From: an uncultured Nitrosomonadales bacterium
GTDB lineage: Bacteria > Pseudomonadota > Gammaproteobacteria > Burkholderiales > Gallionellaceae
Assembly (NCBI GenBank): GCA_903858965.1
Contig: CAIOKY010000155.1
Location: forward strand, 1 to 36,612
Direction: 5' to 3'
Length of the DNA: 36,612 nt
Program-made: the position numbers and the translations under genes
Shown here: piece by piece, positions 4,469-31,091 of the stretch
How positions within the stretch are numbered: position 1 is the stretch's first letter
How the letters are laid out: every line of letters begins with the position of its first letter
The notes under the pieces: model-generated
The model's input: the letters and a program-made list of their open reading frames with translations, nothing else
Told to the model about the DNA's origin: nothing
The model's database searches: none

Positions 4469-4529
4469 GTTTTACATAAATTAGAGCAATGCTCGAATCG
4501 AACGCAACGGTATGCAAAATTCACAACCT

Positions 4530-4654: not shown

Positions 4655-4673
4655 TAACTGAGAGGTATCTGTT

Positions 4674-4700
4674 ATGAAGTTCTTAAAGGTACATACTTAA
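4674..4700 (+). promoter_or_regulatory. Possible eight-codon leader ORF before mdcE
   Basis: An ATG at 4674 with a good GAGAGG ribosome site eight bases upstream opens an eight-codon frame (MKFLKVHT). It stops at TAA 4698-4700, one base before the mdcE ATG. Ribosomes ending here could restart at mdcE, whose own AAAGG lies about 12 bases upstream, inside this mini-ORF. It may equally be chance or the residue of an older junction. Confidence 0.3.
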
Positions 4701-4701
4701 C

Positions 4702-5403: not shown

Positions 5404-5407
5404 GTCC

Positions 5408-8033: not shown

Positions 8034-8055
8034 AGTTATGGCACACTGAGACTAT

Positions 8056-13174: not shown

Positions 13175-15586
13175 ATGAAACCAGGCAGGAACGATCCGTG
13201 CAGTTGCGGCAGCGGAAAGAAATACAAGCACTGTTGCGAGGGGAAAGTTGCGTTTCAAACTCGGGCACCGTCATCCGCCGAATTGAATCAGCTTGGCGCC
13301 TTGTACAACACCGGACGGTATGCGGAACTGGAAAATCATGCGCTCTTTCTGATCAAGCAGTATCCGGATTCCGGGATTCCCTGGAGAGGATTGAGTCTGG
13401 CTCTTCAGATGCAAGGCAAAGATGCCCTGCATGCTTTGCAAAAGACAGCGGAACTTATTCCCGGCGATGCCAATGTGCACAGCAATCTTGGCCTGGCCTT
13501 GTTAGACCTCGGGCAAGCGGCTGCCGCCGCGTCCAGCTTTCGCCGCGCGTTGAAGATTAAACCGGATTTCGCGGAGGTGCACAGCAATCTGGGCTATGCC
13601 CTATATATACTCGGGCAATACGAAGACGCACGGGCAAGCTGCCGTCGCGCGCTGGAGCTCAAGCCGGATTTTGCCGAAGCGCATAACAACCTGGGCAATG
13701 CACTGAAAGCGCTCGGGTTACTCGACAATGCGATAGCCAGTTATCGCCATGCATTGAAAATCAAACCCGATTTCGCCATGGTGCACAACAATCTGGGTCT
13801 TGCCCTGCAAGCCCTTGAACAACCCGACGATGCGGAGGCGAGTTACCGCCGCGCATTGGAAGTCATGCCGGATTACGTGGATGCATTCAATAATCTGGCC
13901 GGCCTGTTGTTGGCTCGTGGTGAGAACATATCCGCACTGGATTTCATCCTCCGCTCGTTATTGATCGAGGACAGGCGAGAGACCAAGGACCTCTTTGTTG
14001 CTTCCGTCAAGCATTTGAAGTTCACCCATGCCGGGGATCCGGTCCGGGCTGCGATGATCCGCGCCCTGTCGGAACCTTGGTGCGAGCCGATAGAATTGGT
14101 AAGAGTCAGCAGCAGCATTGTCAAGCTCAACCGGACAGTTGGGCAGTGCATAGCGCGTGCGGTTGCGGCTTGGCCACAACGCTTGGCGGCACCTGAGTTG
14201 TATGGGACAGCGGGGATTGCTCCCGTATCGGAAGATGCGTTGTTATGCCGCATCCTTGAATCAGCGCCAGTCTGCGATCTAGAGATGGAGCGCTTCCTCA
14301 CGATGGTGCGATTCACACTGCTGGTTGCCGCTACCGGTGAAAATTTTTCGGGACACATGGAGGGTGGTGTTCCGGGTTTCTACAGCGCGTTGGCACAGCA
14401 GTGCTTCATCAACGAATATGTTTTTGCATGGACGGATAATGAGGCCACACAGGCATGCGGATTACGTGATGTGCTGGCCGCTGCCTTGGTGTCTGATACA
14501 CAAATTTCAGTCCTGCAACTGTTGGCGGTGGCATGTTACTTCCCACTGCATACCCTCCCGTCTGCTGCACGGTTGCTGAAGCGCTCATGGCCAAGGGCAG
14601 TGGAAGAATTATTGACGCAGCAGGTTCGCGAGCCTGAAGCTGAGGGGAAAAATCGCGCTGCCATGCCACAGTTGACCGCCATAGATGGCGAGGTATCGCT
14701 GCAGGTTCAAAACCAGTATGAGGAAAATCCCTATCCGCGCTGGATCAGGGCGGCGCCGACGAGGAGCCTGGGAAGCCTCGATGAGGCAATGCACCTAACC
14801 TTCCCTCAGTCATTGTTTCGGCCGCTGGGCAAGCACAGTACTCTCGACATCCTGATTGCGGGCTGCGGTACCGGCCAGCATCCGATCGATGTCGCGCATA
14901 AATTTTCCGATGCAAGACTGCTGGCCATCGATCTCAGCTTGACCAGCCTGGGCTATGCCGAGAGGAAATCCCAAGAGCTCGGCCTGACTTCGATCGAGTT
15001 TGCGCAGGCCGACATCATGAAGCTGGGATCACTGGGACGCAGTTTTGATGTCATAGAATCCATCGGCGTCTTGCACCATCTTGCCGATCCGCTGGCGGGG
15101 TGGCGGGTACTGCTATCCTTGCTGCGCCCGGGTGGGATCATGCGCCTTGGTTTTTACAGCGAGGCGGCGCGGCGCGGCGTTGTTCTGGCAAGAGAATTTA
15201 TCGCCGAGCATGGTTACGGTTCCACTGCCGAAGATATCCGGCGGTGTCGTCAGGAGCTGATGAATTCCAGCGAAAGTACCGGGTTCGGATTTGCGATCAA
15301 ATCTACCGATTTTTTCAGCACCAGCGCATGCCGGGATCTGCTGTTCCATGTTCAGGAGCATCGCATGACGCTTGCAGGCATTGATGCATTTCTCAGGGAA
15401 AATAATTTGCAATTTCTGGGGTTCGCAAACCAGTCTGATATTTTTCGTGGCTACAGGCAACGATTCCCGGATGATCCGGCAGCGACGAATCTGGCCAACT
15501 GGCAAATTTTCGAGAACGAGAACCCTGATACATTCGTTGGTATGTACCAATTCTGTATTCAGAAGCCAGGCCGAGTAAAAGGGTAA
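13175..15586 (+). CDS. SEC-C/TPR protein with C-terminal SAM-dependent methyltransferase domain
   Basis: This protein of about 803 residues has three parts. Residues 1-22 are a SEC-C zinc knuckle (MKPGRNDPCSCGSGKK, with Cys9, Cys11, Cys20, Cys21). Residues 66-269 hold about six TPRs with regular NLGxAL and YRRALxxxPDF motifs. A helical middle leads to a class I methyltransferase domain with the AdoMet-binding loop IAGCGTGQH at about 559-567 and IESIGVLHHL near 626-635. I start at the second ATG (13175) because the paralogues at 15592 and 29337 begin with the same MKPGRN and GGGA lies eight bases upstream. The substrate is unknown; TPRs and SEC-C suggest binding to proteins. Its stop overlaps an upstream ATG of the next paralogue (TAATG). 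Confidence 0.88.
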   Translation: MKPGRNDPCSCGSGKKYKHCCEGKVAFQTRAPSSAELNQLGALYNTGRYAELENHALFLIKQYPDSGIPWRGLSLALQMQGKDALHALQKTAELIPGDANVHSNLGLALLDLGQAAAAASSFRRALKIKPDFAEVHSNLGYALYILGQYEDARASCRRALELKPDFAEAHNNLGNALKALGLLDNAIASYRHALKIKPDFAMVHNNLGLALQALEQPDDAEASYRRALEVMPDYVDAFNNLAGLLLARGENISALDFILRSLLIEDRRETKDLFVASVKHLKFTHAGDPVRAAMIRALSEPWCEPIELVRVSSSIVKLNRTVGQCIARAVAAWPQRLAAPELYGTAGIAPVSEDALLCRILESAPVCDLEMERFLTMVRFTLLVAATGENFSGHMEGGVPGFYSALAQQCFINEYVFAWTDNEATQACGLRDVLAAALVSDTQISVLQLLAVACYFPLHTLPSAARLLKRSWPRAVEELLTQQVREPEAEGKNRAAMPQLTAIDGEVSLQVQNQYEENPYPRWIRAAPTRSLGSLDEAMHLTFPQSLFRPLGKHSTLDILIAGCGTGQHPIDVAHKFSDARLLAIDLSLTSLGYAERKSQELGLTSIEFAQADIMKLGSLGRSFDVIESIGVLHHLADPLAGWRVLLSLLRPGGIMRLGFYSEAARRGVVLAREFIAEHGYGSTAEDIRRCRQELMNSSESTGFGFAIKSTDFFSTSACRDLLFHVQEHRMTLAGIDAFLRENNLQFLGFANQSDIFRGYRQRFPDDPAATNLANWQIFENENPDTFVGMYQFCIQKPGRVKG

Positions 15587-15591
15587 TGTGC

Positions 15592-17571
15592 ATGAAGCCA
15601 GGAAGAAACGATCCATGCAGCTGCGGCAGCGGAAAGAAGTACAAAAATTGTTGTGAAGGGAAAGTTGCATCTTCCATGTCAGTGCCGTCGTCCGCCGAAA
15701 TCAATGCGCTGATCGTTCTGTACAACGCGGGGCGTTATGCGGAGGCAGAAAGCGGGGCACGCATGCTGGTTGGCCGACGCCCGAGCTTCGGCTTTGGCTG
15801 GAAACTGCTGGGCGGTGCACTTCAGATGCAGGGCAAGAATGCGCTGCCTGCCTTTCAAAAGACCGCGGAACTGATGCCCGGTGAAGCCAATGCGCACAGC
15901 AATCTGGGTGCCGTCCTGTATGGTCTTGGGAAGTATGACGAAGCGCTGTCGAGCTACCGCAAAGCGATGGAATTAAAACCCGCTTTTGCAGGGTCGCATT
16001 ACAACCTGGGCAAAATCCTGAGCGAATGCGGGAAGCTGGAAGAGGCCGTGGCGTGTTATCGCAGGGCAATTGATATCCAGCCCGACTTTGCCATGGCACA
16101 TTACAACCTGGGTAACGCACTTAAGGATTTGGGCCAGCCTGACGGAGCGGTGGCAAGCTACCGCAAGTCGTTGCAGATCGATCCCGGTTTTTTGCCGGCG
16201 TATGTCAATCTGGGCGTTGTTCTTCAGGGCCGGAGCCAGTTTTCCGAAGCAGCAAGCTGCTATCGCCGCGCGTTGGAGATCGAGCAAAATCTGGCTGATA
16301 TCCACAGCAATCTGGGCCATGTACTGAAACACCTCGGAGAATTTGACGCGGCTATGGCTAGCTATCGGCGCGCGATCGGAATCGATCCTGGTTGCATTGA
16401 AGCCACGCTGGGGGCGGGACTTTTGTGCATGGAAAATGGCGAGATGGAAGAGGCCGAAAGCTTGTTCCAACGAGCGTTGAAGATCAATGTCCGGGATATG
16501 GAAGCCCGTTATCTTCTGGCGCAGGTGAAAAAAGTAGATGCTGGTGACGAAAATTTTTCTACTCTGGTTGCGTTGGAAGAAAACGCGCGAAACAAAGCAT
16601 CATCCACGATCGAACCCCTATCCGACTCGGATGCGATCAAGCTGTATTTTGCGCTGGGTAAGTGTTGCGATGACGTAGGGGATCACGACCAGGCTTTCCG
16701 TCACTATATCAAGGGCTGCCAACTGAAGCGTGCCACGCTTGCCTATGACGCCGAGCGGACGGCGCAATATTTCAGCGACATCATCGGGTTTTTTGACCGG
16801 GCTACAATAGAACGCCTGCGTGGTGGAGGTGATCCATCACGGGTGCCTGTTTTTGTGCTGGGCATGCCGCGTTCCGGCACTACGTTGACCGAGCAGATCA
16901 TCGCCAGTCATCCGGATATTCGGGGTGCCGGAGAACTGCCCGATTTGCTGATGGCTATAAAACGCGGGGCAGCCAGAATAGGAGCCAGATTTCCGGATGA
17001 CATGTCTGCACTCGGTCTGAAAGATCTTGCCGTATGGGCTGAAGATTATGTTGCCGGTTTGCTTAAGCGGGCACCGGATGCAAAACGCATCACCGACAAA
17101 ATGCCGGAAAATTACCTGGCCGTAGGCTTGATACACTTGATGCTGCCGAACGCGAAGATCATCCACGTCAATCGCAACCCGGTGGATACCTGTCTTTCCT
17201 GCTTTACCAAATTGTTCAACAGCGGGGCCGAATATTCCTACGATCTGGCAGAGCTGGGCCGGTACTACGGCGGTTATGCGAGGTTGATGGCGCATTGGCG
17301 CAGCGTGTTGCCTGCCGGAGCCTTCCTGGACGTGCAGTACGAAGAGATTGTCGCTGACCAGGAAACGCAAGCCAGGCGCATGATAGCTTTCTGCGGTCTG
17401 GAGTGGAGCGATGCTTGCATCGACTTTCATCACGCCAAGAATGCAGTTCGCACCGCCAGTTTGACCCAGGTGCGCCAACCTATATACGGATCCTCGGTGA
17501 ATCGCTGGAAGCGGTATCAAAAACATCTGGCCCCATTGCTGGAAGCGCTTGGCGATTTGGTGCCGAAGTAA
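15592..17571 (+). CDS. SEC-C/TPR protein with C-terminal sulfotransferase domain
   Basis: The predicted 659-residue protein begins with the same SEC-C knuckle (Cys9, Cys11, Cys20, Cys21) as its neighbour. About seven or eight TPRs follow (residues 66-305). The C-terminal half is a sulfotransferase of the tyrosylprotein-sulfotransferase-like type. The PAPS 5'-phosphosulfate loop is VFVLGMPRSGTTLTEQIIAS at about 419-438, and the 3'-phosphate site is VNRNPVDTCLSCF near 525. It would move sulfate from PAPS to an unknown acceptor. AAAAGGG sits eight bases before the ATG at 15592, although an ATG two codons upstream overlaps the previous stop. It forms a pair with the methyltransferase paralogue and probably shares its transcript. 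Confidence 0.9.
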   Translation: MKPGRNDPCSCGSGKKYKNCCEGKVASSMSVPSSAEINALIVLYNAGRYAEAESGARMLVGRRPSFGFGWKLLGGALQMQGKNALPAFQKTAELMPGEANAHSNLGAVLYGLGKYDEALSSYRKAMELKPAFAGSHYNLGKILSECGKLEEAVACYRRAIDIQPDFAMAHYNLGNALKDLGQPDGAVASYRKSLQIDPGFLPAYVNLGVVLQGRSQFSEAASCYRRALEIEQNLADIHSNLGHVLKHLGEFDAAMASYRRAIGIDPGCIEATLGAGLLCMENGEMEEAESLFQRALKINVRDMEARYLLAQVKKVDAGDENFSTLVALEENARNKASSTIEPLSDSDAIKLYFALGKCCDDVGDHDQAFRHYIKGCQLKRATLAYDAERTAQYFSDIIGFFDRATIERLRGGGDPSRVPVFVLGMPRSGTTLTEQIIASHPDIRGAGELPDLLMAIKRGAARIGARFPDDMSALGLKDLAVWAEDYVAGLLKRAPDAKRITDKMPENYLAVGLIHLMLPNAKIIHVNRNPVDTCLSCFTKLFNSGAEYSYDLAELGRYYGGYARLMAHWRSVLPAGAFLDVQYEEIVADQETQARRMIAFCGLEWSDACIDFHHAKNAVRTASLTQVRQPIYGSSVNRWKRYQKHLAPLLEALGDLVPK

Positions 17572-17596
17572 GCTCGAGTTGTGCAGAACCTCGGCT

Positions 17597-17625
17597 GCGA
17601 CAGCCCAGGCAAAGCCTGATAGAAT
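17597..17625 (+). promoter_or_regulatory. Duplicated ndk promoter ahead of the third TPR gene
   Basis: GCGACA (17597-17602), a 17-base spacer and TAGAAT (17620-17625) repeat exactly the arrangement found before the intact ndk at 19263-19291. The surrounding block GGCAAAGCCTGATAGAATGC is shared. The -35 and -10 boxes are identical in the two copies while the spacer differs at a few bases, which supports a functional promoter. Confidence 0.6.
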
Positions 17626-17669
17626 GCCAAGCCATTTTATTGAATGCAAATCAAGTCTGGGGAAATGGC

Positions 17670-17807
17670 ATGGCCGTTGAGCGTACCCTGTCGAGTATCA
17701 AACTCCATGTAGTAATCAAGCAGCCATCAACCAGATTCACGCCAGGTTTGGATGTTATTGCGGCCAACATGCCGCAGCCCTTGGTGCTGAAGGCTGCATC
17801 AACCTGA
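17670..17807 (+). pseudogene. ndk: Decayed 5' fragment of ndk
   Basis: The frame starts [11 protein letters not shown], nearly the same as the real Ndk ([13 protein letters not shown]), and then loses similarity through frameshifts. A later stretch reads INQIHARF in another frame, matching IGQIYSRF of Ndk, and AANM matches AAQM. About 45 codons remain and no active-site region is present. Its TGA overlaps the ATG of the following TPR-sulfotransferase gene (TGATG, 17805-17809). It is part of a duplication that includes the ndk promoter. The intact gene lies about 1.67 kb downstream. The divergence implies an old copy or one from a related strain. Confidence 0.8.
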
Positions 17808-19081
17808 TGATGTCCCCCGATAAATCAACCACGAACATCAGCTCGGGAAGTGAGCCGAGCCCGCAGGAAGTCAATCTGTTGCTGGCCCTGTACAAAGAGG
17901 GGCGCTACGCTGAAACAAAAGCCCTTGCTAGTGAAATAACGGTACGGTTTCCTCGGCATAGTTTTGGCTGGAAGGCGATGGGAACCGTGCTCCTGCAGCA
18001 GGGGTACACTGAAGAAGCTTTGGTACCATTTCAGAATGCAGCCGAATTGTCACAGGAAGATGCTTCATTACATAACAGTCTGGGCAATACATTCGCGAAA
18101 TTAGGGAGGCTGTCTGAAGCAGAGGCCAGCTATTGGCGAGCCCTGACGCTTAATCCAAATTTCACCGAAGCTCAGCACAATTTGAACAATATACTCAGGC
18201 TGGCCCGGCTGTCCGAAGCGGAAAGGCTATCTCTGGGCATTGTACAAAAACAGCCAAGTCAACCTATTCCTGAGTTCGAAAAGTTTAATAACTATTTATT
18301 TATCGTCGGTGCACAAAAAGCAGGTACAACCTCGTTGTATAGTTATTTTGACCAAAGGCCCGAGGTGGTTGGCGGGGAGATCAAAGAAAAATCATTTTTT
18401 AGCCTGGATAGTTTTTTTGAGAAGGGCAATCGTTATTACCATTCCATGTTTCCGATTGGTTCACAGTACGCTTGCGGCATGGATGCAACGCCGGAATATC
18501 TTTACCACGGAGAATGCGCGGGCCGCATTCATACCTTTGATCCAGATGCAAAAATTGTTGTCCTGTTGCGTGAACCCGTATCAAGAGCTTTGTCTGCTTT
18601 CAATATGTACCATCAAATTATTCGGAATCGATCTTTCAGGGAATTAATCCGGCAGTGCAGTAAGCACACTCAAGATTTCTTTATGCCGATCATCGAAGGT
18701 AAAGTTGAACCTACCCTGGCTTATTTCCTTAATCGAGAGCTTCAGGTCATGGAGCAGGACAAGATGGTGGAAGAACCGTCATTAATCAGGCGCGGGTTGT
18801 ATGCCCCACAGTTGGAGCGCTATATCCGCCAGTTTGGTCGCAAGAACATATTGATCCTGTTTAGTGATGATTTGAAAACGGATACGCATAATACTGTCAA
18901 TAAGGTGTGTAACTTTATTGGACTGAAACCATTTGGTGACAGGGAATATCCCATGCAGAATGTCCTGGAATATAGGGTGGACCAGCGTGGTAAAGACTTA
19001 ATCGGCCAGCTTGCAAATGATTTATTTGCAAAAGACAAGCTGGAGCTGGCTCAGACTTACGGACTTATTGTTCCCTGGTAG
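17807..19081 (+). CDS. TPR protein with C-terminal sulfotransferase domain, lacking SEC-C
   Basis: The 424-residue product keeps the pre-TPR segment of its neighbours (PSPQEVNLLLALYKEGRYAE, compare PSSAEINALIVLYNAGRYAE) and two or three TPRs (to about residue 130). It has no SEC-C knuckle. The sulfotransferase domain is of the heparan-sulfate/NDST type, with PAPS loop IVGAQKAGTTSLYSYF at about 166-181 and LLREPVSRALSAFNMY near 250. It is thus a different family from the sulfotransferase upstream. The second half is visibly richer in A and T than neighbouring genes, suggesting transfer. The start sits at the junction with the ndk remnant, where the SEC-C part would be expected. Only a weak GAAGG precedes it, so expression may rely on coupling to the remnant. 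The ATG at 17810 is an alternative start. Confidence 0.88.
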   Translation: MMSPDKSTTNISSGSEPSPQEVNLLLALYKEGRYAETKALASEITVRFPRHSFGWKAMGTVLLQQGYTEEALVPFQNAAELSQEDASLHNSLGNTFAKLGRLSEAEASYWRALTLNPNFTEAQHNLNNILRLARLSEAERLSLGIVQKQPSQPIPEFEKFNNYLFIVGAQKAGTTSLYSYFDQRPEVVGGEIKEKSFFSLDSFFEKGNRYYHSMFPIGSQYACGMDATPEYLYHGECAGRIHTFDPDAKIVVLLREPVSRALSAFNMYHQIIRNRSFRELIRQCSKHTQDFFMPIIEGKVEPTLAYFLNRELQVMEQDKMVEEPSLIRRGLYAPQLERYIRQFGRKNILILFSDDLKTDTHNTVNKVCNFIGLKPFGDREYPMQNVLEYRVDQRGKDLIGQLANDLFAKDKLELAQTYGLIVPW

Positions 19082-19262
19082 AAGTGATGAATTAGCTAGA
19101 CTTAGGCCAAGCGGAACGGGAGACCCGGCCGCAGTGTACGATTCTGCCGGTTTTCAGCGGAACACCGACGGAGATACGCAAGCTTCCCGGCCACGCTTTA
19201 TAGTTATCGGATGCGCGGGATGATCTGGCCCGGGTGAGTGCAGGCGCAAGCGGGTAGCAGCT

Positions 19263-19291
19263 GCGACAGCGGGGGCAAAGCCTGATAGAAT
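19263..19291 (+). promoter_or_regulatory. Probable sigma-70 promoter of ndk
   Basis: GCGACA (19263-19268), 17 bases and TAGAAT (19286-19291) place transcription start near 19298. The same boxes and spacing are conserved in the duplicated copy at 17597-17625. The 180 bases between the upstream stop and this site show no gene. Confidence 0.6.
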
Positions 19292-19337
19292 GCCAAGCCG
19301 TTTTTATTAACCACTATTTATGTCTGGAGAAAGTAGC

Positions 19338-19763
19338 ATGGCTGTTGAACGTACCCTGTCGATTATCAAGCCCGATGCAGTTGCAAAGAATGTCATCGGC
19401 CAGATTTACTCGCGCTTTGAAAAAGCCGGCCTGAAGATTGTCGCCGCGCAAATGCGCCACCTGACGCGTGCCGAAGCGGAAGGTTTTTATGATGTGCATC
19501 GCGCCCGTCCGTTCTTCAAGGACTTGGTGGATTTCATGGTTTCCGGCCCGGTGATGATCCAGGTGCTGGAAGGCGACAACGCCGTTCTGAAGAATCGCGA
19601 CCTGATGGGTGCGACCGATCCGAAGAAGGCCGACAAGGGCACCATCCGCGCCGATTTCGCGGACAGCATCGATGCGAATGCGGTGCATGGTTCGGATTCC
19701 GCGGAAAATGCAGCCAATGAGATCGCTTATTTCTTCCCGAAGAAGAATATCCATCCACACTAA
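19338..19763 (+). CDS. ndk: Nucleoside diphosphate kinase
   Basis: Ndk moves the gamma phosphate of ATP to other nucleoside diphosphates through a phosphohistidine. The 141-residue protein starts [15 protein letters not shown] and contains the active-site motif NAVHGSDS with the catalytic histidine near residue 117, and the [17 protein letters not shown] segment before it. The ATG at 19338 is chosen over the in-frame ATG at 19320 because it matches the family start and has GGAG nine bases upstream. A decayed duplicate of its 5' end lies at 17670. It is followed by rlmN after nine bases. Confidence 0.97.
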
Positions 19764-19772
19764 GAGTTAAAG

Positions 19773-20855
19773 ATGCAGCAAAACCTCCTCGATTTTGATG
19801 CGCAGGCACTGGCCGGTTATTTCACGGAAATGGGCGAAAAACCGTTCCGTGCGCGCCAGCTGATGCGCTGGATGTACAAGGCCGGGGAGTCCGATTTCGC
19901 CGCGATGACTGATATTGCTGCAGCAACGCGCGACAGGTTGGCGCAATGTGCCAATATCACTGCGCCGAATGTGATGCGCGAGGAATTGTCCGACGATGGC
20001 ACGCGCAAGTGGTTGCTGAACGTGGGTACCGGGAATGCCGTGGAAGCGGTGTACATCCCCGAAGAAACGCGCGGTACATTATGCGTTTCCACTCAGGCCG
20101 GTTGTGCGCTGAATTGCTCGTTCTGCTCGACCGGCAAGCAGGGTTTCAACCGCAACCTGAGTGTTGCGGAGATCATCGGCCAGTTATGGTGGGCTAATCA
20201 TCAACTCGGCAAAGATGCCGACGGCAACTGGAAAATCAGCAATGTGGTGATGATGGGCATGGGCGAGCCGTTGTTGAATTTTGACAACACGGTGAGCGCG
20301 CTGCGCTTGATGCTGGATGACAACGCTTATGGATTGTCGCGCCGCCGCGTGACGGTCTCTACATCCGGCATCGTGCCGGCAATGGACCGGCTGCGCGAAG
20401 AATGTCCGGTGGCGCTAGCCGTCTCGTTGCATGCGCCGAATGACAAATTGCGCGACGAATTGGTGCCGATCAACCAGAAATATCCGCTCAAGGAATTGCT
20501 GGCCGCCTGCCGGCGTTATCTGGAGCGTGCGCCGCGCGATTTCATCACTTTCGAGTATGTGATGCTGGAAGGCGTGAATGATTCGGTGCAACAGGCTCGC
20601 GAGCTGGTGAAGCTGGTGCGAGATGTGCCTTGTAAATTCAACCTGATTCCGTTCAATCCGTTTCCCCAGACGCATTATCGGCGTTCGAGACCGGATGATA
20701 TCCAGCATTTTCGCGATGTGCTGATGCAGGCCGATATCGTGACTACTACGCGCAGGACACGTGGAGATGATATCGCGGCGGCCTGCGGCCAGCTGGCCGG
20801 CCAAGTGCAGGATAAGACCAAACGAACCCTGCGTCGTTCTGTCGGAGTGGTATAG
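19773..20855 (+). CDS. rlmN: Dual-specificity 23S rRNA/tRNA adenine-C2 methyltransferase RlmN
   Basis: RlmN is a radical-SAM enzyme that methylates A2503 of 23S rRNA and A37 of some tRNAs. The 360-residue protein shows the CxxxCxxC cluster motif with Cys111, Cys115 and Cys118 in [12 protein letters not shown], the [12 protein letters not shown] segment near 162, and the C-terminal methyl-carrying cysteine in IAAACGQL (Cys338). ndk-rlmN-pilF is the order expected in betaproteobacteria. Short spacing on both sides suggests a common transcript. Confidence 0.97.
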
Positions 20856-20874
20856 ATGAATTGCGAGGCACACC

Positions 20875-21612
20875 TTGAATAAATTGCTGTCTTTGGTGTT
20901 TCTAATGTCTGTATTGGCGGGTTGTAGCACGCCCGGCGGTTCGGGCGGTATCGCCAGCGCCAAGGTTCATACCGAGCTGGCGGGTTTGTATTTTGATCGC
21001 GCGCAGTTCGGCGTTGCGCTGGAGGAGATAGAGCATGCCTTGCGGTCGGATCAGGATTATGCGCCGGCATATTACATGCGGGGCCTGATTCACATGGAAC
21101 TGCGTGAGGATAAAGATGCTGAAGAGGACTTTAAACAAAGCATACGCCTCGACAAGGACGATCCCAAAGCGCATTACAACTATGGTTTATTCCTGTGTGA
21201 CCGGGCCAGGGAGAAAGAGTCCATTGCACAATTCATGGCGGCAGTGAAAAACCCCTTGTATGAAACACCCGGGCTGGCTTATCTCGGCGCCGGGCAATGC
21301 TCAAAAAAAGCAGGCAACAACAAGGATGCAGAAGAGTTCCTGCAAAAAGCCCTGAAGGTGCAACCTGATTTGACGCAAGCCATGTATGCCCTCGCGGAAT
21401 TGAATTTTGCCAATGCCGATTATTTTGCTGCCAGGAAATATTTTGCGAACTTTTCGCAAAGAAACGAAAACTTGACAGCGGCGCAACTCTGGCTGGGAGT
21501 GCGTATCAGCCGCAGGGTGGAAGATCGTAGTTCGGAGGCCAGCTATGCGACACAGTTGCGCAATCGCTTTCCCGACTCGCGTGAAACCCAATCGTTGACA
21601 CATGGTGAATGA
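20875..21612 (+). CDS. pilF: Type IV pilus biogenesis/stability lipoprotein (TPR)
   Basis: This outer-membrane lipoprotein helps assemble the PilQ secretin in systems where it has been studied (PilF in Pseudomonas, PilW in Neisseria). The 245-residue protein has a signal peptide with lipobox LAGC, giving lipidated Cys17, and about six TPR units typified by YYMRGLIHMELREDKDAEEDF and AHYNYGLFLC. The start is TTG at 20875 with GAGG about eight bases upstream; no better in-frame start lies near. The stop overlaps the rodZ start. No other pilus gene is in the window. Confidence 0.9.
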   Translation: MNKLLSLVFLMSVLAGCSTPGGSGGIASAKVHTELAGLYFDRAQFGVALEEIEHALRSDQDYAPAYYMRGLIHMELREDKDAEEDFKQSIRLDKDDPKAHYNYGLFLCDRAREKESIAQFMAAVKNPLYETPGLAYLGAGQCSKKAGNNKDAEEFLQKALKVQPDLTQAMYALAELNFANADYFAARKYFANFSQRNENLTAAQLWLGVRISRRVEDRSSEASYATQLRNRFPDSRETQSLTHGE

Positions 21613-22568: not shown

Positions 22569-22570
22569 GC

Positions 22571-23842
22571 ATGAGTGCAGCCATCATAAAACGCCGCCCG
22601 TCGCAACGGGTATTGGTTGGCAAGGTGATGCTGGGCGGCGGTGCGCCTATCGTGGTGCAGTCCATGACCAATACCGATACAGCCGATGCCGAAGCGACCA
22701 CAAAGCAGGTATTCGAGTTAGCCAAGGCCGGTTCCGAGCTGGTACGCATCACCGTCAACACTCCCGAGGCTGCCGCGCAAGTGGCCAACATACGCGCGCG
22801 TTTAGATGCAATGGGTTGCGATGTGCCGCTGGTGGGCGATTTCCATTACAACGGCCATCGCCTGCTGAATGACTTTCCGGATTGCGCACAGGCCTTGGCG
22901 AAATACCGCATCAACCCGGGCAACGTCGGGCGCATTCGCAAGGAAGATGATCCGTTCTCGATGATGATAGAAACGGCTATCCGTTATGACAAGCCGGTGC
23001 GCATCGGGGTGAATTGGGGCAGTCTGGACCAGAATCTGGTCGCGCGCATGATGGATGAGAATTCGCGCCTTGCCCAACCGAGAGAAGCAAATGAAGTGAC
23101 CCGTGCCGCGCTGATCGCTTCAGCTTTGGAAAGCGCGCAGCGCGCCGAGCAATTGGGTTTGGCGCATAACCGCATCGTGCTGTCATGCAAGGTCAGCGAT
23201 GTACAAGACCTGATCTCGGTATATCGCGCGCTGAGCAGGCAGTGTGACTATGCGCTGCACCTTGGGTTGACCGAAGCAGGCATGGGTTCCAAGGGTATCG
23301 TCGCTTCGACCGCGGCATTGTCGGTGCTGTTGCAGGAAGGTATAGGCGACACGATCCGTATTTCTTTGACCCCGGAGCCGGGCGGTGATCGCACCCAGGA
23401 AGTGCTGGTCGGCCAGGAGATATTGCAGACCATGGATTTGCGCGCGTTCGCACCGATGGTGACGGCGTGCCCGGGTTGTGGACGCACCACCAGCAGCTTC
23501 TTCCAGGAATTGGCGCAAAGCATCCAGACGCATCTGCGTGTGCAGATGCCGCTGTGGCGAAAACAATATGAAGGCGTGGAGAACATGACCGTTGCGGTGA
23601 TGGGTTGTGTGGTGAACGGACCGGGCGAAAGCAAGCTGGCCAACATCGGCATCAGCCTGCCGGGAACCGGCGAGAGTCCAGCCGCGCCGGTGTATATCGA
23701 CGGCGAAAAAACCGTGACTTTGCGCGGTGACAACATCGCCAAGGAGTTTACGGAGATCGTCGACAGCTACGTGGCACGTAAATATGCAGCGCGCAGCGAT
23801 GAGACAAAAATGTCACACAGCATACCGTTACACGCCGTTTAG
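22571..23842 (+). CDS. ispG: (E)-4-hydroxy-3-methylbut-2-enyl-diphosphate synthase
   Basis: IspG converts methylerythritol cyclodiphosphate to HMBPP in the MEP isoprenoid pathway with a 4Fe-4S cluster. The protein has [17 protein letters not shown] near residue 28, [12 protein letters not shown] near 88, and a cluster-binding region with [12 protein letters not shown] and [12 protein letters not shown]. The ATG at 22571 fits relatives starting [15 protein letters not shown] two codons upstream overlaps the rodZ stop (GTGA) and is also possible. The gene is intact and of normal length (423 residues). Confidence 0.97.
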
Positions 23843-23865
23843 AAAAATTGCCCGAAAGAATTATT

Positions 23866-25137
23866 GTGAGCAGTAACGAAACCCTGCAAGCCGTGCGCGG
23901 CATGAATGACATCCTGCCGGACGAAGCCGAGCTGTGGTTGTGGTTCGAGGAGGTGGTACGCGACTGGCTGCATAGCTATGGTTACCGCAACATCCGCATG
24001 CCGCTGGTCGAGCCGACTACTCTGTTCAAACGCGCTATTGGTGAAGTCACCGACATCGTCGAAAAAGAGATGTACAGTTTCGAGGACAGTCTCAATGGCG
24101 ATCAGCTCACGCTGCGTCCTGAGGGAACCGCTTCATGCGTGCGTGCCGTGCTGCAGCACAATCTGCTGTATAACGCGCCGCAGCGCCTGTATTACAGCGG
24201 ACAGATGTTCCGTCACGAGCGCCCGCAGAAAGGACGTTATCGCCAGTTTCACCAATTCGGTGTCGAAGCCCTGGGTTTTGCCGGGCCGGACATTGATGCC
24301 GAACATATCCTGATGTGCGCACGGCTATGGAAGAAATTGGGACTGCGCGATGTCGCGCTGCAATTGAATACTTTGGGGGATACCGATTCACGGCATCGCC
24401 ATCGTGCCAAGCTGATCACTTATTTCGAACAACACACAGGATTGCTGGATGCAGAGGCACAGCGGCGTTTACACAGCAATCCCTTGCGCATACTGGATAG
24501 CAAGAATCCGGCGATGCAGGAACTGATTGTTGGTGCGCCCAGACTGATGGATGAGCTGGATGAGGACGCGTTGCGCCATTTTGATGAGCTGCAAGCAATA
24601 CTCAAACAACACGAAGTGCCGTTTGAGATCAATCCGCGGCTGGTGCGCGGATTGGATTATTACAACCGTACCGTATTCGAATGGGTGACCACGCAACTCG
24701 GCGCGCAGGGCACCATCTGTGCGGGAGGGCGCTATGACGGGCTGGTCGAACAGATAGGCGGCAAGCCTGCTACGGCAATCGGTTTCGCGATGGGAGTGGA
24801 GCGATTGCTGGCGTTGTTGCTGGATGATGGCATGGCGCTGCCCAAGCCCGGGGTGGATGTGTATGTGGTGCATCAGGGCGAACCGGCGAGCCGATTGGCC
24901 AGCCGGGTGGCCGAGCAATTGCGCGATGGCAATCTGCGCGTGGTATTGCATTGCGGCGGCGGCAGTTTCAAGTCGCAAATGAAAAAGGCCGATGGCAGCG
25001 GCGCGCGCGTGGCGGTAGTGATCGGCGAAGATGAGGCGCAGGCGAACGAAGTCAGCGTGAAGCCGATGCAGGGCGGTGAACAGGTCAGGGTCGCTGTGCG
25101 GGAACTTAATGCGATCGTAAATAATTTAATCAAGTAG
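23866..25137 (+). CDS. hisS: Histidyl-tRNA synthetase
   Basis: HisRS charges tRNA(His) with histidine. The class II core is clear: [17 protein letters not shown] at the start, motif 2 with [19 protein letters not shown] near residue 107, the histidine motif [13 protein letters not shown] near 255 and motif 3 [13 protein letters not shown] near 305. A C-terminal anticodon domain starting DVYVVHQG follows. I choose the GTG at 23866 because relatives have few residues before QAVRGMND and GAAAG lies upstream. A TTG at 23848 would add six residues. The order ispG-hisS-yfgM-bamB-der is the canonical proteobacterial cluster. Confidence 0.97.
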
Positions 25138-25146
25138 GGGTATGAC

Positions 25147-25785
25147 ATGGCGGTGTTGGATTTGCAGGAACAGGAACAACTCGATGCGCTCAAGGCGTGG
25201 TGGAAAGACAACGGTAACTGGGTACTCGGTGTACTGCTTGTTGCCGTGACCGGAGTGAGCGGCTGGCGCGGCTGGCAGTATTACCAGTACCAGCAGGCAA
25301 GCGGAGCGGCATCCTTATACCAGCAAGTCGTCGAACAGGTCGACAGCCATGACGCCAAGCGCGTCAACGATGCCGCCGCCGCGGTGATGGACAAATTTTC
25401 TTCTACTCCCTACGCCGCGCGCGCTGCATTGTTGGCGGCACAAGTGAATGAGCAGGGCAAGGATGTGGCGCATGCCAAGGCGCAATTGCAATGGGTGATA
25501 GATCATGCAAGCGAAGATGCGCTCAAAGATGTGGCGCGATTGCGCCTGGCGGCAGTGCTGCTGGACGAGAAGAATTATGCGGATGCGCTGAAGCAATTGG
25601 AAGCCAGGCATGCGGAATCATTCGATGGTTTGTATGCCGACTTGAGAGGCGATGTATTGAGCGCACAGGGCAAGGCAGATGATGCGAGGAGCGCCTACAA
25701 ACTGGCTTACGAAAAAATCGACGCGCAAAGCATGTATCGCAATTTTATCCAGATGAAGATCGATGCACTAGGCGTGACTAAATGA
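25147..25785 (+). CDS. yfgM: YfgM-type TPR membrane protein
   Basis: YfgM is an inner-membrane protein with a periplasmic TPR-like domain that, in E. coli, associates with the SecYEG-PpiD translocon and periplasmic chaperones. The 212-residue protein has a cytoplasmic N-terminus (LDLQEQEQLDALKAWWKDN), one membrane segment at about 24-42, and helical repeats (AKAQLQWVIDHASEDALKDV, RLRLAAVLLDEKNYADALKQ). Its stop overlaps the bamB start (ATGA), in line with their shared role in envelope protein traffic. Confidence 0.93.
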   Translation: MAVLDLQEQEQLDALKAWWKDNGNWVLGVLLVAVTGVSGWRGWQYYQYQQASGAASLYQQVVEQVDSHDAKRVNDAAAAVMDKFSSTPYAARAALLAAQVNEQGKDVAHAKAQLQWVIDHASEDALKDVARLRLAAVLLDEKNYADALKQLEARHAESFDGLYADLRGDVLSAQGKADDARSAYKLAYEKIDAQSMYRNFIQMKIDALGVTK

Positions 25786-26933
25786 AATTGGCGGGCTCTT
25801 TGTTGCTGGCGTTGCTTGCACTGGGAGGCTGTGCATCTAGCGATGAGTCGATACCGGACTGGGCTGGCGTGAAGGGAGATTCCGACCCGACACCCCTGGT
25901 CGCATTTAGCGAGACAGCGAAGTTTGAAGTGCGCTGGCATAGCAATGTCGGCGCTTCTGGCGCGAATCCGCAGCAACCTGTGCTGACCAACAATGCGGTT
26001 TATGGCGTGTCCGGAAATGGCAGTTTGACGCGGTTGGATCGTGTTACCGGCAAGCAGGTATGGCGCATTGAGACCGGTATCGTCGTGAGCGGAGGTGTGG
26101 CCAGCGGGGAAGGCTTGCTCGTTGTCGGCGGAGACAAGGGTGATGTGCTGGCTTATGAAGAAGATGGCAAGCCGCGCTGGAAAAGCAAGATGTCCAGCGA
26201 AGTGTTGAGCGTCTCGGCGATCGTTGACGGCGTGGTGATTGTGCGTAGTGGCGACGGACGCATTGCCGGATTGAATGCGGCCGATGGTAAACGCATGTGG
26301 TTGTATGAGCGCAGCACGCCGGCGCTGGTGGTGCGCAGCCATGCCGGAGTCGCGATTCAGCGCGGTGTGGCATATGCCGGATTCGCGGGCGGGAAGATAG
26401 CCGCGATCAAAATCAAGGACGGCGAAGTACTATGGGAGAATTCCGTATCGCAGCCAAGCGGCAACACCGAGCTGGAACGTATCAGCGATGTTACCAGCGA
26501 TCCGGTTGTGGATGACGAACAGGTTTGTGCCATTGCGTTCCAGGGGCATGTGGCGTGTTTCGATCCGGCGCAAGGTGGCCCGCTATGGAACCGCGATATC
26601 TCCAGTGACAAGGGTATGATGTTATTGCGCAAATTCATCTATCTCACCGATGCGAAGGGAATCGTGATGGCACTGGATAAAGCCAGCGGCAGCACGGTAT
26701 GGAAGAACGACCAGCTGTTGCTGCGCAGCGTTACGACCCCTTACGCGTTGGGTGAGTTTGTCGTGGTTGGCGATTTTGAAGGATATCTGCACGGTTTGAA
26801 TCGCGAGGACGGGCATTTTGTTGCGCGCATCCAGCTCGATGGGGGTGCGGTAAGGACCGTGCCGCTTCAAATGGATGATGGCCTGCTGGTGGAGACACGA
26901 AGCGGTGAGCTGTATTCGTTGTCGCTAAAATGA
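25782..26933 (+). CDS. bamB: Outer membrane protein assembly factor BamB
   Basis: BamB is a lipoprotein of the BAM complex that supports insertion of beta-barrel proteins. The 383-residue protein has a signal peptide with lipobox LGGC (Cys17). An eight-bladed PQQ-type propeller follows, recognised by repeated blade motifs such as GKQVWRIETG, GKPRWKSKM, GKRMWLYER, GEVLWENSV and GPLWNRDISS. It is translationally coupled to yfgM. A 95-base gap with a perfect AT-rich palindrome separates it from der. Confidence 0.96.
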   Translation: MKLAGSLLLALLALGGCASSDESIPDWAGVKGDSDPTPLVAFSETAKFEVRWHSNVGASGANPQQPVLTNNAVYGVSGNGSLTRLDRVTGKQVWRIETGIVVSGGVASGEGLLVVGGDKGDVLAYEEDGKPRWKSKMSSEVLSVSAIVDGVVIVRSGDGRIAGLNAADGKRMWLYERSTPALVVRSHAGVAIQRGVAYAGFAGGKIAAIKIKDGEVLWENSVSQPSGNTELERISDVTSDPVVDDEQVCAIAFQGHVACFDPAQGGPLWNRDISSDKGMMLLRKFIYLTDAKGIVMALDKASGSTVWKNDQLLLRSVTTPYALGEFVVVGDFEGYLHGLNREDGHFVARIQLDGGAVRTVPLQMDDGLLVETRSGELYSLSLK

Positions 26934-26960
26934 TCTTTGGGGATTTTCACCCACAAAATA

Positions 26961-26981
26961 AATAACAATATTATTGTTATT
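26961..26981. promoter_or_regulatory. Perfect 21-bp AT-rich palindrome upstream of der
   Basis: AATAACAATA, a central T and TATTGTTATT form a perfect dyad between bamB and der. It lacks GC pairs and is not followed by a clear terminator T-run, so it is a poor terminator. The symmetry suits an operator for a dimeric regulator. No regulator is identified. Confidence 0.45.
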
Positions 26982-27028
26982 TCCGCGTTGTTCGTGGATA
27001 GGCAGTTTTCAGGAATAAAGGTTTTCAT

Positions 27029-28432
27029 ATGTTGCCCACAGTAGTATTGGTAGGTCGTCCGAACGTTGGCAAGTCCACCTTGTTCAATCGCCTCACGCGC
27101 AGCCGCGACGCACTGGTGGCCGATTTGCCGGGGCTGACACGCGACCGCCATTACGGGCGCGGCAGGGTGGGGGACAGGCCCTATCTGGTCGTGGATACCG
27201 GCGGACTGGAGCCAGTCGCCAAGGAGGGCATCCTGTTCGAGATGGCCAAGCAAAGCCGTCAGGCGGTGGATGAAGCCGATGTGGTGATGTTCCTGGTCGA
27301 TGGCCGTGCCGGCTGTACACCGCAGGATGCCATCATCGCCGAACAATTGCGCAAGACCGGCAAGCCCATCCTGTTGCTGGTCAACAAGGCCGAGGGCATG
27401 GCGCGCGCCAAGGTGACCGCCGATTTTTTTGAGCTGGGCCTGGGCGAACCGCTGCCGATCTCTTCGGCGCACGGTGACAACGTCAACGAAGTGATCGAGA
27501 TCGCGCTGGAGAATTTTCCACCGGAGGTCGAGGAAGAAACCAACCACGAACATCCGCCCAAGCTGGCCATAGTCGGCCGTCCCAATGTCGGCAAGTCCAC
27601 GCTGGTGAATGCCATTCTCGGCGAACAGCGCGTGATCGCGTTCGACCAGCCGGGCACCACGCGCGACAGTATCTACATCGATTTCGAGCGTGACGGCAAG
27701 CAATACACCATCATCGATACTGCGGGTGTGCGCCGTCGCGGCAAGGTGGACGAAGCAGTCGAAAAATTCTCCGTGATCAAAACCATGCAGGCGATCGAGG
27801 ATGCCAATGTGGTGGTGTTGGTGGTGGATGCCCGCGACCAGATCACCGAGCAGGACGCGCATGTCGCCGATTTCGTACTGCAGGCGGGACGAGCGCTGGT
27901 GCTGGCGGTCAACAAATGGGACGGACTGGATGAATATCACCGGGACCAGGTCAAGCGCGACATTGAGCGCAAGCTGCACTTCCTGAGTTTCGCCAAGCTG
28001 CATTTTATTTCCGCGCTGCACGCCAATGGCATTCCGGGCGTGTTGAAATCGGTGGATGAGGCTTATGCGGCGGCGATGGCAAAATTGTCCACACCGAAAC
28101 TCACCCGCGCCCTGATAGGTGCGCTGGAAAAACAGCAGCCGCCCAAGGGCGGACGCTTCATCCCGAAGATGCGTTATGCGCACCAGGGCGGCAGCAACCC
28201 GCCGCTGATCGTGATCCACGGCAGCGGTCTGGATGATGTGCCGGCGAGCTACAGCCGGTATCTGGAACGTACTTTTTGCGAGATATTCAAGCTGAAAGGT
28301 ACACCGCTGAAGATCCAATATAATTCCAGCAAGAATCCATTCGAGGGCTCGAAACCCAAGCCACTCACCGAAGGCGAACAACGCAGGGCGCATCGCGCGC
28401 GCATTCGCGGGCGTAAATTGTACGGGTCCTGA
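27029..28432 (+). CDS. der: Ribosome biogenesis GTPase Der (EngA)
   Basis: Der is a double GTPase needed for 50S subunit maturation. The 467-residue protein carries the first P-loop GRPNVGKST at residues 9-17 and a second ([20 protein letters not shown]) near 180-199. DTGGL and [10 protein letters not shown] switch motifs, two NK[AW]xG/D guanine motifs ([16 protein letters not shown]) and the KH-like C-terminal domain with [14 protein letters not shown] follow. AAAGG precedes the ATG. A long open frame on the opposite strand is a shadow of its high GC. The hfq-hflX genes that often follow are absent here. Confidence 0.98.
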
Positions 28433-28460
28433 TCGTATATTAAGTCCGGGAGAAACAACC

Positions 28461-29231
28461 ATGAGCACATTCGCCTTCTACCAAAAAGTCGTCGCACTCA
28501 ATTCCGACGTGCACCGCAATCTCAAATTCGCTGCCAGCGAGGTCAACTTTACCTTTGCGCGCGATACCACAGCGGTGCTGTTGGCCGGGGTGGAATTTGC
28601 CGAGGCTTCGCATGAATATCCCATCGTGTTCATACGCGGCCAGGACAAGCAGATACGCCCGGTCGTGCTGCTCGGTGTGCGCAACGGTGAAAACCTGTTC
28701 GTCGATGAGCAGGGGAAATGGGATGCGCGCTATATCCCGGCTTTTGTGCGCCGCTATCCGTTTGTGATGGCGGAGGGTGGTGCGGCAGGACAGTTGGTGG
28801 TGTGCATAGACGAAAGCTGTCCTGCGCTGAATTCTGCGCACGGTGAATTGCTGATCAACGCGGAAGGCAAGCTGCAGCCGCGCATGAACGAGGTGATGCA
28901 GTTTCTGCAAAATTTTCAGAACGAATTTGCGCGCACTGAACTGATTACCAAACAGCTCGATGAGCTGGGCTTGTTTATCCAACAGGGCGCGCGTTTCGAC
29001 ACCAATACCGGCGAGACTTTCCAGCTCAATGATTTTTACCTGATAGACGAAGCCAAATTCGGCCAGATCACTGATGAAAGATTGCCGCAATTATTTCGCA
29101 GCGGCGCATTGGGTTTGGTCTATTTGCACCTCGCTTCATTGGGAAATATGCGCAAATTGCTGGACAGAGTGGCAGTACGTTCGGCGGCGCAAAAACAAAA
29201 ATTGCCAACGACAAATATTCCGCCGCATTAG
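28461..29231 (+). CDS. SapC family protein
   Basis: The 256-residue product matches the SapC-like family named after a gene near an S-layer cluster. Its biochemical role is not established. Visible motifs are FYQKVVALNSDVHRNLKF at the start, FARDTTAVLLAGVEFAEAS near 34, YPIVFIRG, and WDARYIPAFVRRYPFVMAEG near 87. No signal peptide or membrane helix is seen, so a cytoplasmic place is likely. GGGAGA precedes the ATG. It stands just before a TPR-SPINDLY glycosyltransferase gene, which suggests but does not prove a link to surface or protein modification. Confidence 0.85.
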   Translation: MSTFAFYQKVVALNSDVHRNLKFAASEVNFTFARDTTAVLLAGVEFAEASHEYPIVFIRGQDKQIRPVVLLGVRNGENLFVDEQGKWDARYIPAFVRRYPFVMAEGGAAGQLVVCIDESCPALNSAHGELLINAEGKLQPRMNEVMQFLQNFQNEFARTELITKQLDELGLFIQQGARFDTNTGETFQLNDFYLIDEAKFGQITDERLPQLFRSGALGLVYLHLASLGNMRKLLDRVAVRSAAQKQKLPTTNIPPH

Positions 29232-29336
29232 TTGGCAGGCGCGCCCATATTAAACTGGCAACCATGACGTTCAGGCAGATCCAGAGCCGATTGCGGGCAG
29301 AATGTTGAACTGTTGTTACCGATACAGGGTGCATGC

Positions 29337-31091
29337 ATGAAGCCAGGAAGAAACGAACCGTGCTATTGCGGTAGCGGGAAAAAATTCAAGCACTGTTGCG
29401 AGGGCAAGGCCGCCCCCGTTCTCCCGATACCGCCGTCCGCCGAAATAAACCAGCACGTCGCGCTGTATAACGCAGGCCGCTATGTGGAGTTGGAAACCCG
29501 GGCGCGCCATCTGGTGGGGCAATATCCGGCATTCGGATTTGGCTGGCAGCTGTTGGGTGGTGCCCTGCAGATGCAGGGCAAGGATGCGTTGCCTGCCTTT
29601 CGCAAAGTGGCTGAACTGTTGCCCGGCGATGCCGATGCGCATTACAACCTGGGCGTTGCCCTGAAAAGTGCAGGACTGTTTGCTGACGCGGTTACAAGTT
29701 ACCGTCATGCATTGAAGATCAAACCCGATTATGCCGAGGCGCATTACAATCTGGGCAATGCCTTGAAACAGCTGGGCCAACACGGTGACGCCGTCGCGAG
29801 CTTTCGTCGTGCGCTGGAGCTCAAACCCGATTACATCGACGCGCAAAGCAACTTGCTATTCGCCCTGAACTTCATGGCGGGTCTCGCCTCCAGCCATTAT
29901 CTGGCAGAAGCTGAACAATACGGTCGGATGGCAGCCAGAAAAGTAGCTGCGCGATTTGCCACATGGGATTGCGTAGCCCAGCCGGAACGATTACGGGTAG
30001 GGTTGGTATCGGGCGATCTGTGCAATCATCCGGTGGGATATTTTCTGGAAAGCTTGCTGGCGCAGCTTCAGCACAGCCGTATTGAATTGATCGCTTATCC
30101 GAGCAACCCCGTGATGGACGAACTCACTGCCCGCATCAAACCTCATTTCGCCGGATGGAAGCCATTGTTTGGCCTGAACGATACATCTGCCGCGCGCTTG
30201 GTTCATGACGACGGTGTGCATGTCCTGATCGATCTTGCCGGTCATACCGGACATAATCGCCTGCCGATGTTCGCGTGGAAACCCGCGCCGGTACAAGTCA
30301 GCTGGCTTGGTTATTTTGCCACCACCGGTATCGCTGAAATGGATTATCTGCTGGCTGACAAGTATGTGGTTCCTGATGATGAAGAACATAACTTTACCGA
30401 AACGATCTGGCGTCTGCCGGAGAGTTATCTATGTTTTACGGCGCCGGGGTACGCCGTGGAAGTGTCTCCGCTTCCCGCGCTAACCAATGGCTATGTTACT
30501 TTCGGATGTTTTAACAACCTGGTCAAGATGAACGATGTCGTGGTAGCTTTATGGGCTCGCGTGCTCAATGCCGTCCCAGACTCGCGTTTGTTCCTCAAGA
30601 CCAAACAACTCAAGAATCCCATGATCTGTGATACCACCCGTCAGCGCTTTGTCGAACATGGCATTTCGCCCGAACGGATTGTGCTGGAAAGTGGCGCCCC
30701 CCGGCCTGAACTGCTGGCAACTTATCGCAATGTGGATATCGCGCTCGATCCCTTCCCTTATCCCGGTGGCACCACAAGTGTAGAAAGCCTCTGGATGGGC
30801 GTACCGGTCATCACCCGCTGTGGCGACCGGTTCCTCTCGCACATGGGGGAAACCTTTGCCCACAATGCCGGATTGGCAGACTGGATCGCCGCAGATGACG
30901 ATGACTATGTTGCCAAGGCTGTGCAACATACGGCGGACTTGCAACGTCTGGCGGCATTGCGGTCAGATTTGCGCCAACAGGTATTGACATCACCTATTTT
31001 TGATGCGCCGCGCTTTGCTGGAAATTTTGCAGCAGCACTGTGGGGGATGTGGCAAACTTGGTGTGATAAGCAAGTAAAGGGGAGTGCATGA
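29337..31091 (+). CDS. SEC-C/TPR SPINDLY-type (GT41) glycosyltransferase
   Basis: This 584-residue protein starts with a SEC-C knuckle ([16 protein letters not shown], Cys9, Cys11, Cys20, Cys21) and three or four TPRs (66-180). A C-terminal O-GlcNAc-transferase-like domain follows (about 218-575) with [55 protein letters not shown] and [22 protein letters not shown]41 enzymes transfer sugars from nucleotide donors to Ser/Thr of proteins. The ATG at 29337 is chosen because AGGG lies seven bases upstream and the paralogues share MKPGRN; a TTG at 29313 is unlikely. Its stop overlaps the start of a UDP-glucuronate decarboxylase gene, so UDP-xylose or a related sugar could be the donor; this is inference. 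Confidence 0.92.

Follow-up and report, generated by a model that had tools for sequence, protein, structure and literature searches.

Genes of the window and their common start

The stretch analysed here (the window, 36.6 kb in full) lies on contig C155 (CAIOKY010000155.1) of the 2.2 Mb draft genome of an uncultured member of the Gallionellaceae. It encodes enzymes in which a SEC-C metal knuckle of the SecA type and a block of tetratricopeptide repeats (TPRs), which together we call the chassis, are followed by catalytic domains, or heads, of different kinds. The genes concerned are a co-directional trio starting at 13175, 15592 and 17807 and a fourth gene at 29337, set among ordinary genes. 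All four open reading frames (13175-15586, 15592-17571, 17807-19081 and 29337-31091) translate with no internal stop, and the second begins 5 bases past the stop of the gene before it. Their features are as follows.

13175..15586, + strand: SEC-C, TPRs, a middle region of about 270 residues and a class I methyltransferase (MT), by Pfam
13175..13483, + strand: chassis of the MT gene (SEC-C, linker and first TPR-like units), SEC-C at 13187-13240
13925..15583, + strand: MT head including the middle region, Methyltransf_25 at residues 559-654
15592..17571, + strand: SEC-C, TPRs and Sulfotransfer_3 (ST3, TPST-like), by Pfam
15592..15900, + strand: chassis of the ST3 gene, SEC-C at 15604-15657
16846..17412, + strand: Sulfotransfer_3 head, residues 419-607
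17807..19081, + strand: looser relative without SEC-C, with a Sulfotransfer_1/3 head; TPR start 17846-18073, head 18257-19078
29337..31091, + strand: SEC-C, TPRs and a GT41 (OGT/SPINDLY-like) enzyme, Glyco_transf_41 by Pfam
29337..29645, + strand: chassis of the GT41 gene, SEC-C at 29349-29402
29877..31088, + strand: GT41 head

Pfam places SEC-C (PF02810) at residues 5-22 of the MT, ST3 and GT41 proteins, with scores of 33.3, 30.8 and 34.2 bits against a curated cut-off of 20.4. It finds TPRs in all four window proteins and, behind those of the GT41 protein, Glyco_transf_41 at 170 bits against a cut-off of 25. UPF0149, the domain that makes up the remainder of YecA, is not among the Pfam families of the four proteins (for the ST3 protein, among the best 25 of 33 families). 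Because the knuckle stands at the very start of the three SEC-C proteins and no signal sequence is visible there by eye, the chassis enzymes are probably cytoplasmic.

The first-pass annotation of this DNA had held that three of the genes begin with nearly the same knuckle and TPR block and end in different heads, and this is confirmed by the frames, the Pfam domains and the alignment of the first 108 residues, in which the MT and ST3 proteins are identical at 72 positions, MT and GT41 at 70, and ST3 and GT41 at 75 (65-69%). It had also counted the gene at 17807 as a fourth member. The related TPR start and the other type of sulfotransferase stood up, but the protein has no SEC-C and is a looser relative only, with 33, 38 and 33 identical residues of 93 aligned to the three SEC-C proteins (35-41%). 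Its type of TPR start also occurs in other Pseudomonadota, for example with 12 matches in one genome (G488) and 9 in another (G547).

For the segment that follows SEC-C, the six pairwise local scores among the four window proteins lie between 100 and 260, far over those of 500 shuffles per pair (at most 54) and of comparisons with other TPR blocks of the same proteins (at most 69), and the likeness therefore exceeds a generic TPR background. At the DNA level, similarity in the three window pairs begins 2-5 bases 5' of the start codon and fades inside the TPRs. Generic TPR background as the source of the likeness is ruled out by these tract boundaries together with the score controls.

A shared chassis recombined between heads

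Searching the host draft for SEC-C gave nine matches, eight of them above the cut-off. Seven of these proteins open with the knuckle at the N-terminus and continue into the same TPR start. They are encoded by the three window genes, by further MT (L011) and ST3 (L012) genes, by a divergent GT41 gene (L013) and by a gene that ends at a contig edge and owes its GT41 label to 31 residues (L014), which makes two MT, two ST3 and three GT41-type heads. The eighth match, L010:2449-3726:+ on contig C142, has the order DUF5672, SEC-C, TPR; proteins of this type are kept in two relatives (L159 and L160, 80-82% in the head) and represent another type of SEC-C/TPR fusion.

A profile of the seven host chassis was searched in 61 genomes (the host and its relatives) and in 158 genomes of the family, 300 of the order and 398 drawn from the phylum, no genome having more than 31, 16 or 12 candidates scored at the family, order and phylum level, respectively. 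At E 1e-10 it matched 101 of the 158, 43 of the 300 and 11 of the 398, a good part of the matches spanning the TPR start only or SEC-C only. The 98 stretches taken around the better matches (one from the host), which are drawn from the matches listed and form no census, give, together with the host loci, at least 83 complete SEC-C chassis, spread over 42 genomes in the family and order. Most carry GT41 (43, several of these labels resting on a short stretch at a contig end), ST3 (17) or MT (9) heads. The rare heads are divergent GT41 (2), short MT (2), an arginine methyltransferase of the PRMT family, a B12-binding/radical SAM enzyme and a weak GT9-like match in L270 that falls under the Pfam cut-off (one each); two heads have no Pfam assignment and five chassis are cut before the head. 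The two frames in which Pfam found no head, L266:3229-5121 and L275:5913-7922, we take from motifs read in the letters to be SGNH-like and GT9-like. One genome alone (G068) has ten chassis with at least six head types. The chassis thus recurs in related genomes, where more head types are attached to it. TPR enzymes of the same head classes, with a related TPR start and without the knuckle, are also found, such as L145, L168:12038-14272 and the GT9-like enzyme L128 of the host.

Three of the architectures seen deserve separate description. In G068, L245:200-1846:+ has a PRMT7/9-like arginine methyltransferase head on a SEC-C/TPR chassis, and L254:1960-5088:- joins a SEC-C chassis to B12-binding radical SAM domains flanked by TPRs on both sides. 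In G387, L279:344-3250:+ combines SEC-C, TPRs and GT41 with a second, weakly GT2-like domain behind them.

A further set of 20 stretches was drawn from 18 genomes, of which one belongs to the genus, two to the family, 14 to the order and one to the phylum. It gave 19 SEC-C frames, ten with GT41-type, two with MT, one with ST3 and one with GT9-like heads and five with no assigned head; three matched frames lacked SEC-C, and one frame with an unassigned head (L325) showed no TPR, TPRs having been scanned by Pfam in only some of these frames. Such frames, with varied heads and a more diverged segment after the knuckle, recur in other families of the order, and SEC-C joined to several heads is therefore spread wider in the order than the Gallionella chassis variant. 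Among named genomes the closest chassis matches are metagenome-assembled genomes of Gallionella, and three Gallionella loci (L015-L017) carry SEC-C with one of the head types (80 of 513 loci kept). A spread outside the order was provisionally rejected on the phylum draw, where 11 of 398 genomes matched with no more than 12 candidates scored in each; the two long G488 matches inspected have no SEC-C, and one match in G796 extends into the SEC-C part (query 1-48). Plasmid carriage was likewise rejected, since none of the 12 matching records covers 80% of the chassis and the ten listed cover 18-33%. In another genome (G369, L217) a 162-residue SEC-C frame has eight equal-score matches, and the copy read adjoins frames that read as transposase-like; this frame may be the passenger of an insertion element.

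The histories of chassis and heads are in part separate, with repeated recombination between heads. On a 78-row chassis tree, built from few columns and with a bootstrap that is not settled, the GT41, ST3 and MT labels require 17, 9 and 6 changes, of which the well supported branches alone force 7, 2 and 5, and a single origin of any of the three labels is found in none of 200 bootstrap trees. The approximately unbiased (AU) test, run on 69 rows with a quick tree, rejects one chassis origin for MT (p 5.8e-9) and for ST3 (p 2.7e-10). One ancient fusion per head is ruled out by these tests and the well supported chassis-tree branches.

The same separation is seen in pairwise identities. Within one genome the mean chassis identity is 60.5% between genes with different heads (67 pairs) and 59.0% between genes with the same head (20 pairs), and across genomes it is 53.0% for the same head (1143 pairs) and 52.4% for different heads (1773 pairs). 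The within-genome value for different heads was reached in none of 1000 shuffles of the genome labels, and in none of 500 when G068 was left out. In that genome the MT gene shares 92.0% of its DNA over 539 nt with a gene whose head is unassigned and 87.5% over 546 nt with a GT41 gene; the tracts start at 0 and -7 of the start codon and end at 539 in the MT gene, which is the end of its TPRs. In G017, two GT41 genes are 91.3% identical over 1005 nt of later TPRs and head and 72.9% at the chassis end, about as much as their chassis ends share with the adjacent ST3 chassis (73.0% and 70.1%). For the window ST3 gene, the six closest chassis are without exception those of GT41 or MT genes, and the six genes with the nearest heads have chassis just 55-61% identical to its own. 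For the window MT and GT41 genes, the best BLAST heads are on proteins without SEC-C. On a GT41 head tree of 56 rows made by a quick method (SEC-C present in 37 and absent from 19), the presence of SEC-C changes at least ten times on well supported branches.

The knuckle itself is the most constrained part of the chassis measured: dN/dS is 0.06 in SEC-C, against 0.13 in the first TPRs and 0.33 in the linker (54 non-independent chassis pairs). Its CxC...C(C/H) metal ligands are kept in all 83 chassis, 82 as CC and one as CH, and it commonly takes the form GRNDPCPCGSGKKYK, as in the presumed SecA tails read from relatives (20 in number). The module is thus shared, conserved and repeatedly recombined between heads. 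The proposal that one chassis serves interchangeable heads is strongly supported by the paralogs, the variety of heads, the tree incongruence, the AU tests and the DNA tracts that end at the head boundary, and neither of the outcomes that would have refuted it, generic TPR background or independent ancient fusions with no sharing of the chassis, occurred.

Possible function and rival explanations

Judged by Pfam and by their nearest solved relatives, the heads belong to at least four unrelated superfamilies, namely glycosyltransferases, phosphoadenosine phosphosulfate (PAPS) sulfotransferases, class I methyltransferases and B12-radical SAM enzymes. The nearest solved relative of the window GT41 protein is SPINDLY (7y4i, whole-protein E 1.5e-110), with OGT also matching, and SPINDLY aligns over residues 103-580, that is, after the knuckle. 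The ST3 head is closest to a protein-tyrosine sulfotransferase (8w5z, E 9e-12), and its PRSGTT motif (P426 to T431 of the ST3 protein), invariant in 17 aligned proteins, is presumably the PAPS site. For the MT head the best match is a protein lysine methyltransferase (8hkr, E 5e-23), with small-molecule methyltransferases coming next, and the PRMT head of L245 is closest to PRMT7 and PRMT9. These likenesses suggest that the common heads modify proteins, by O-glycosylation, tyrosine-type sulfation and lysine or arginine methylation.

Among solved structures the knuckle matches SecA tail peptides (1ozb, E 2.7e-6) and YchJ, the better-scoring structures in that search being designed TPR proteins aligned to the TPR part. 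1ozb is a complex of SecB with the metal-binding domain (MBD) of SecA, which is described, in the text available of the source, as needed for SecB binding and as interacting also with ribosomes (PMC6620043). Docking of the chassis on SecB or ribosomes is therefore plausible, and SecB is encoded in 59 of the 61 genomes, the host's included. From the homology of the knuckle to the SecA tail and of the heads to protein-modifying enzymes, we infer that the module may recruit nascent or exported proteins, as the first-pass annotation had suggested.

The explanation that we prefer, and to which we give about an even chance, is that of a family of protein-modifying enzymes built on one recruiting module, in which the knuckle docks, the TPR groove selects the client and the head does the chemistry. 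According to this model, a SecA-type knuckle on a variable linker would dock at SecB or the ribosome, where export-bound proteins stay unfolded; the TPR groove would select the client, as the TPR part of FlmG selects flagellin; and the head would modify that client ahead of export, so that one docking site could serve many modifications. The bolder version, a Gallionella-type modular toolkit on the export path in which any head on the SecA-type chassis modifies clients held by SecB or the ribosome before translocation, is put forward tentatively and is on balance doubtful. Recruitment in these iron oxidisers could follow cellular iron, because iron is reported as a ligand of SecA-like knuckles in vivo (by a title among the references of PMC8076867).

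Several observations weigh against the preferred explanation or narrow it. Head labels cluster on the chassis tree more than in all 200 shuffles, indicating that swapping was repeated and not constant, and the nearest chassis belongs to a gene with the same head in 42 of 78 cases and with another head in 36, so that the decoupling is incomplete. On the GT41 head tree, the window head has well supported sisters (L125 and L269) that do carry SEC-C. The absence of SEC-C from 19 of the 56 GT41 enzymes compared means that the knuckle is not needed for a GT41 head. The closest solved relatives of the B12-radical SAM head are an apramycin-pathway enzyme and the methyltransferase TokK, both small-molecule enzymes, and those of the 17807 head are 3rnl, a sulfotransferase whose substrate is unstated, and heparan-sulfate sulfotransferases; not all heads, then, point to proteins, and the GT9-like heads are not obviously protein modifiers either. 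In the knuckle, 82 of 83 chassis have C as the last ligand, where all 20 presumed SecA tails from relatives have H, and seven G068 copies have KTFE or a similar sequence in place of the SecA-like KKYK. SecB is equally common in relatives without the chassis and so permits the docking idea, neither supporting nor discriminating it. Finally, SecA (as SecA_DEAD) was not found in the host draft, which is probably an assembly gap.

The genes around the chassis, for which Pfam was run on one member of each neighbour cluster, accord with the chemistry of the heads. Two of them adjoin the GT41 gene of the window.

28461..29231, + strand: SapC family gene directly upstream of the GT41 chassis gene, a possible partner
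31088..32026, + strand: NDP-sugar dehydratase/epimerase family gene, its start overlapping the GT41 stop

In the window and in five relatives (6 of 43), the GT41 stop is overlapped by a sugar-nucleotide or DegT gene, and an APS kinase gene follows ST3 in G018 and G105 (2 of 17), APS kinase being encoded by the host genome as well. SapC was rejected as a constant partner, being absent from the neighbour clusters that recur in at least two genomes. In G010, G028 and G170, GT41 chassis genes have YcgR and FliK genes ahead of them, and flagellin genes lie 6.5 kb (G028) and 7.7 kb (G010) from the chassis gene. Flagellin was nevertheless rejected as the common client, because no flagellin match was found in six of the 18 chassis genomes examined (G018, G023, G025, G026, G030 and G036; drafts, 79-99% complete), and the clients probably differ between genomes. 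Elsewhere in the window, a malonate decarboxylase gene cluster occupies 932-9066 (mdcA by NCBIfam, the other genes by position and reading).

The flagellar neighbourhoods are also in keeping with a rather unlikely alternative, in which the TPR groove alone chooses the substrate, as in OGT and FlmG, and SEC-C is an N-terminal cap, a dimer contact or an adaptor of another kind that has nothing to do with Sec or ribosomes. In a two-hybrid assay, FlmG binds flagellin through its TPR part alone, according to the text available of PMC7591256, and the presence of SEC-C changes repeatedly on the GT41 head tree. However, SEC-C is the most constrained part of the chassis and retains most of the SecA consensus, and a third of the examined chassis genomes gave no flagellin match.

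It is quite improbable that the heads act on surface polysaccharide, lipid or small molecules instead of proteins. Sugar-nucleotide, aminotransferase, FkbM and hexapeptide-transferase genes nearby would suit such a role, as would the relatives of the 17807 sulfotransferase (itself without SEC-C) and the occurrence of GT9-like and B12-radical SAM heads on the chassis; yet sugar-nucleotide genes serve protein glycosylation too, and the GT41, TPST-like, lysine-methyltransferase-like and PRMT-like heads have nearest solved relatives that act on proteins. That the chassis likeness is mainly a by-product of homologous recombination between TPR-coding repeats within a genome, with no common function selected, is very unlikely, for although the homology tracts pass through TPR repeats and same-genome copies are more alike, the tracts set in at the start codon and take in SEC-C, which is not repetitive and is under the strongest constraint, and other families of the order also have SEC-C frames that carry different heads and a more diverged segment behind the knuckle.

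Comparison with known systems

Should the recruiting-module explanation hold, these enzymes would form a plug-in system that couples protein modification to the export route and gains new modifications by recombining a head onto a ready recruiting module. It would allow a direct test of the role of SecA-like knuckles outside SecA, provide natural chassis/head boundaries usable in engineering, and supply candidate enzymes for the tyrosine-type sulfation and the arginine methylation of surface proteins in bacteria. Even with no link to Sec, the record of recombination clearly illustrates how modifying enzymes evolve in modular fashion.

The GT41 enzymes OGT, SPINDLY and XcOGT resemble the window GT41 protein in having a TPR superhelix followed by the GT41 catalytic part; to our knowledge, the SecA-type knuckle is not part of them. 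FlmG, the flagellin glycosyltransferase of Caulobacter, is like the chassis enzymes in that an N-terminal TPR part binds the client and a C-terminal glycosyltransferase acts in the cytoplasm, both being needed, as described in the text available of PMC7591256. It differs in having one head and no alternative set, and the term SEC-C is absent from that text. The same architecture of TPRs and glycosyltransferase is present in the GT41 chassis proteins, and flagellin genes lie near such genes in G010 and G028, six of the 18 chassis genomes examined giving no flagellin match.

The knuckle has counterparts on other non-SecA proteins. YecA (AscA) and YchJ bear nearly identical MBDs, and YecA is said to interact with SecB, for which a preprint is cited (PMC8076867); the available text of that source describes them as a chaperone or as proteins of unknown function and mentions no modifying head. 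MSMEG_1285 also combines SEC-C with TPRs, and Rv0613c binds HBHA, a surface protein whose proper exposure depends on both proteins, according to the text available of PMC6032435. These proteins differ from the chassis family in being actinobacterial, and in that text protease activity is discussed and no transferase head appears.

Exchangeable heads are not described for FlmG or for Rv0613c/MSMEG_1285 in the available text of these sources (PMC7591256, PMC6032435), and searches of the open-access literature (subscription papers and preprints being outside its scope) brought up no paper whose title or abstract describes a SEC-C/TPR family with several modifying heads. The building blocks are therefore known, and their use as one swappable set is not described in the open-access literature searched. 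FlmG is a precedent for a TPR part that chooses an exported protein to be modified by the glycosyltransferase fused to it, and Rv0613c/MSMEG_1285 is one for a SEC-C/TPR protein that assists in the display of a surface protein.

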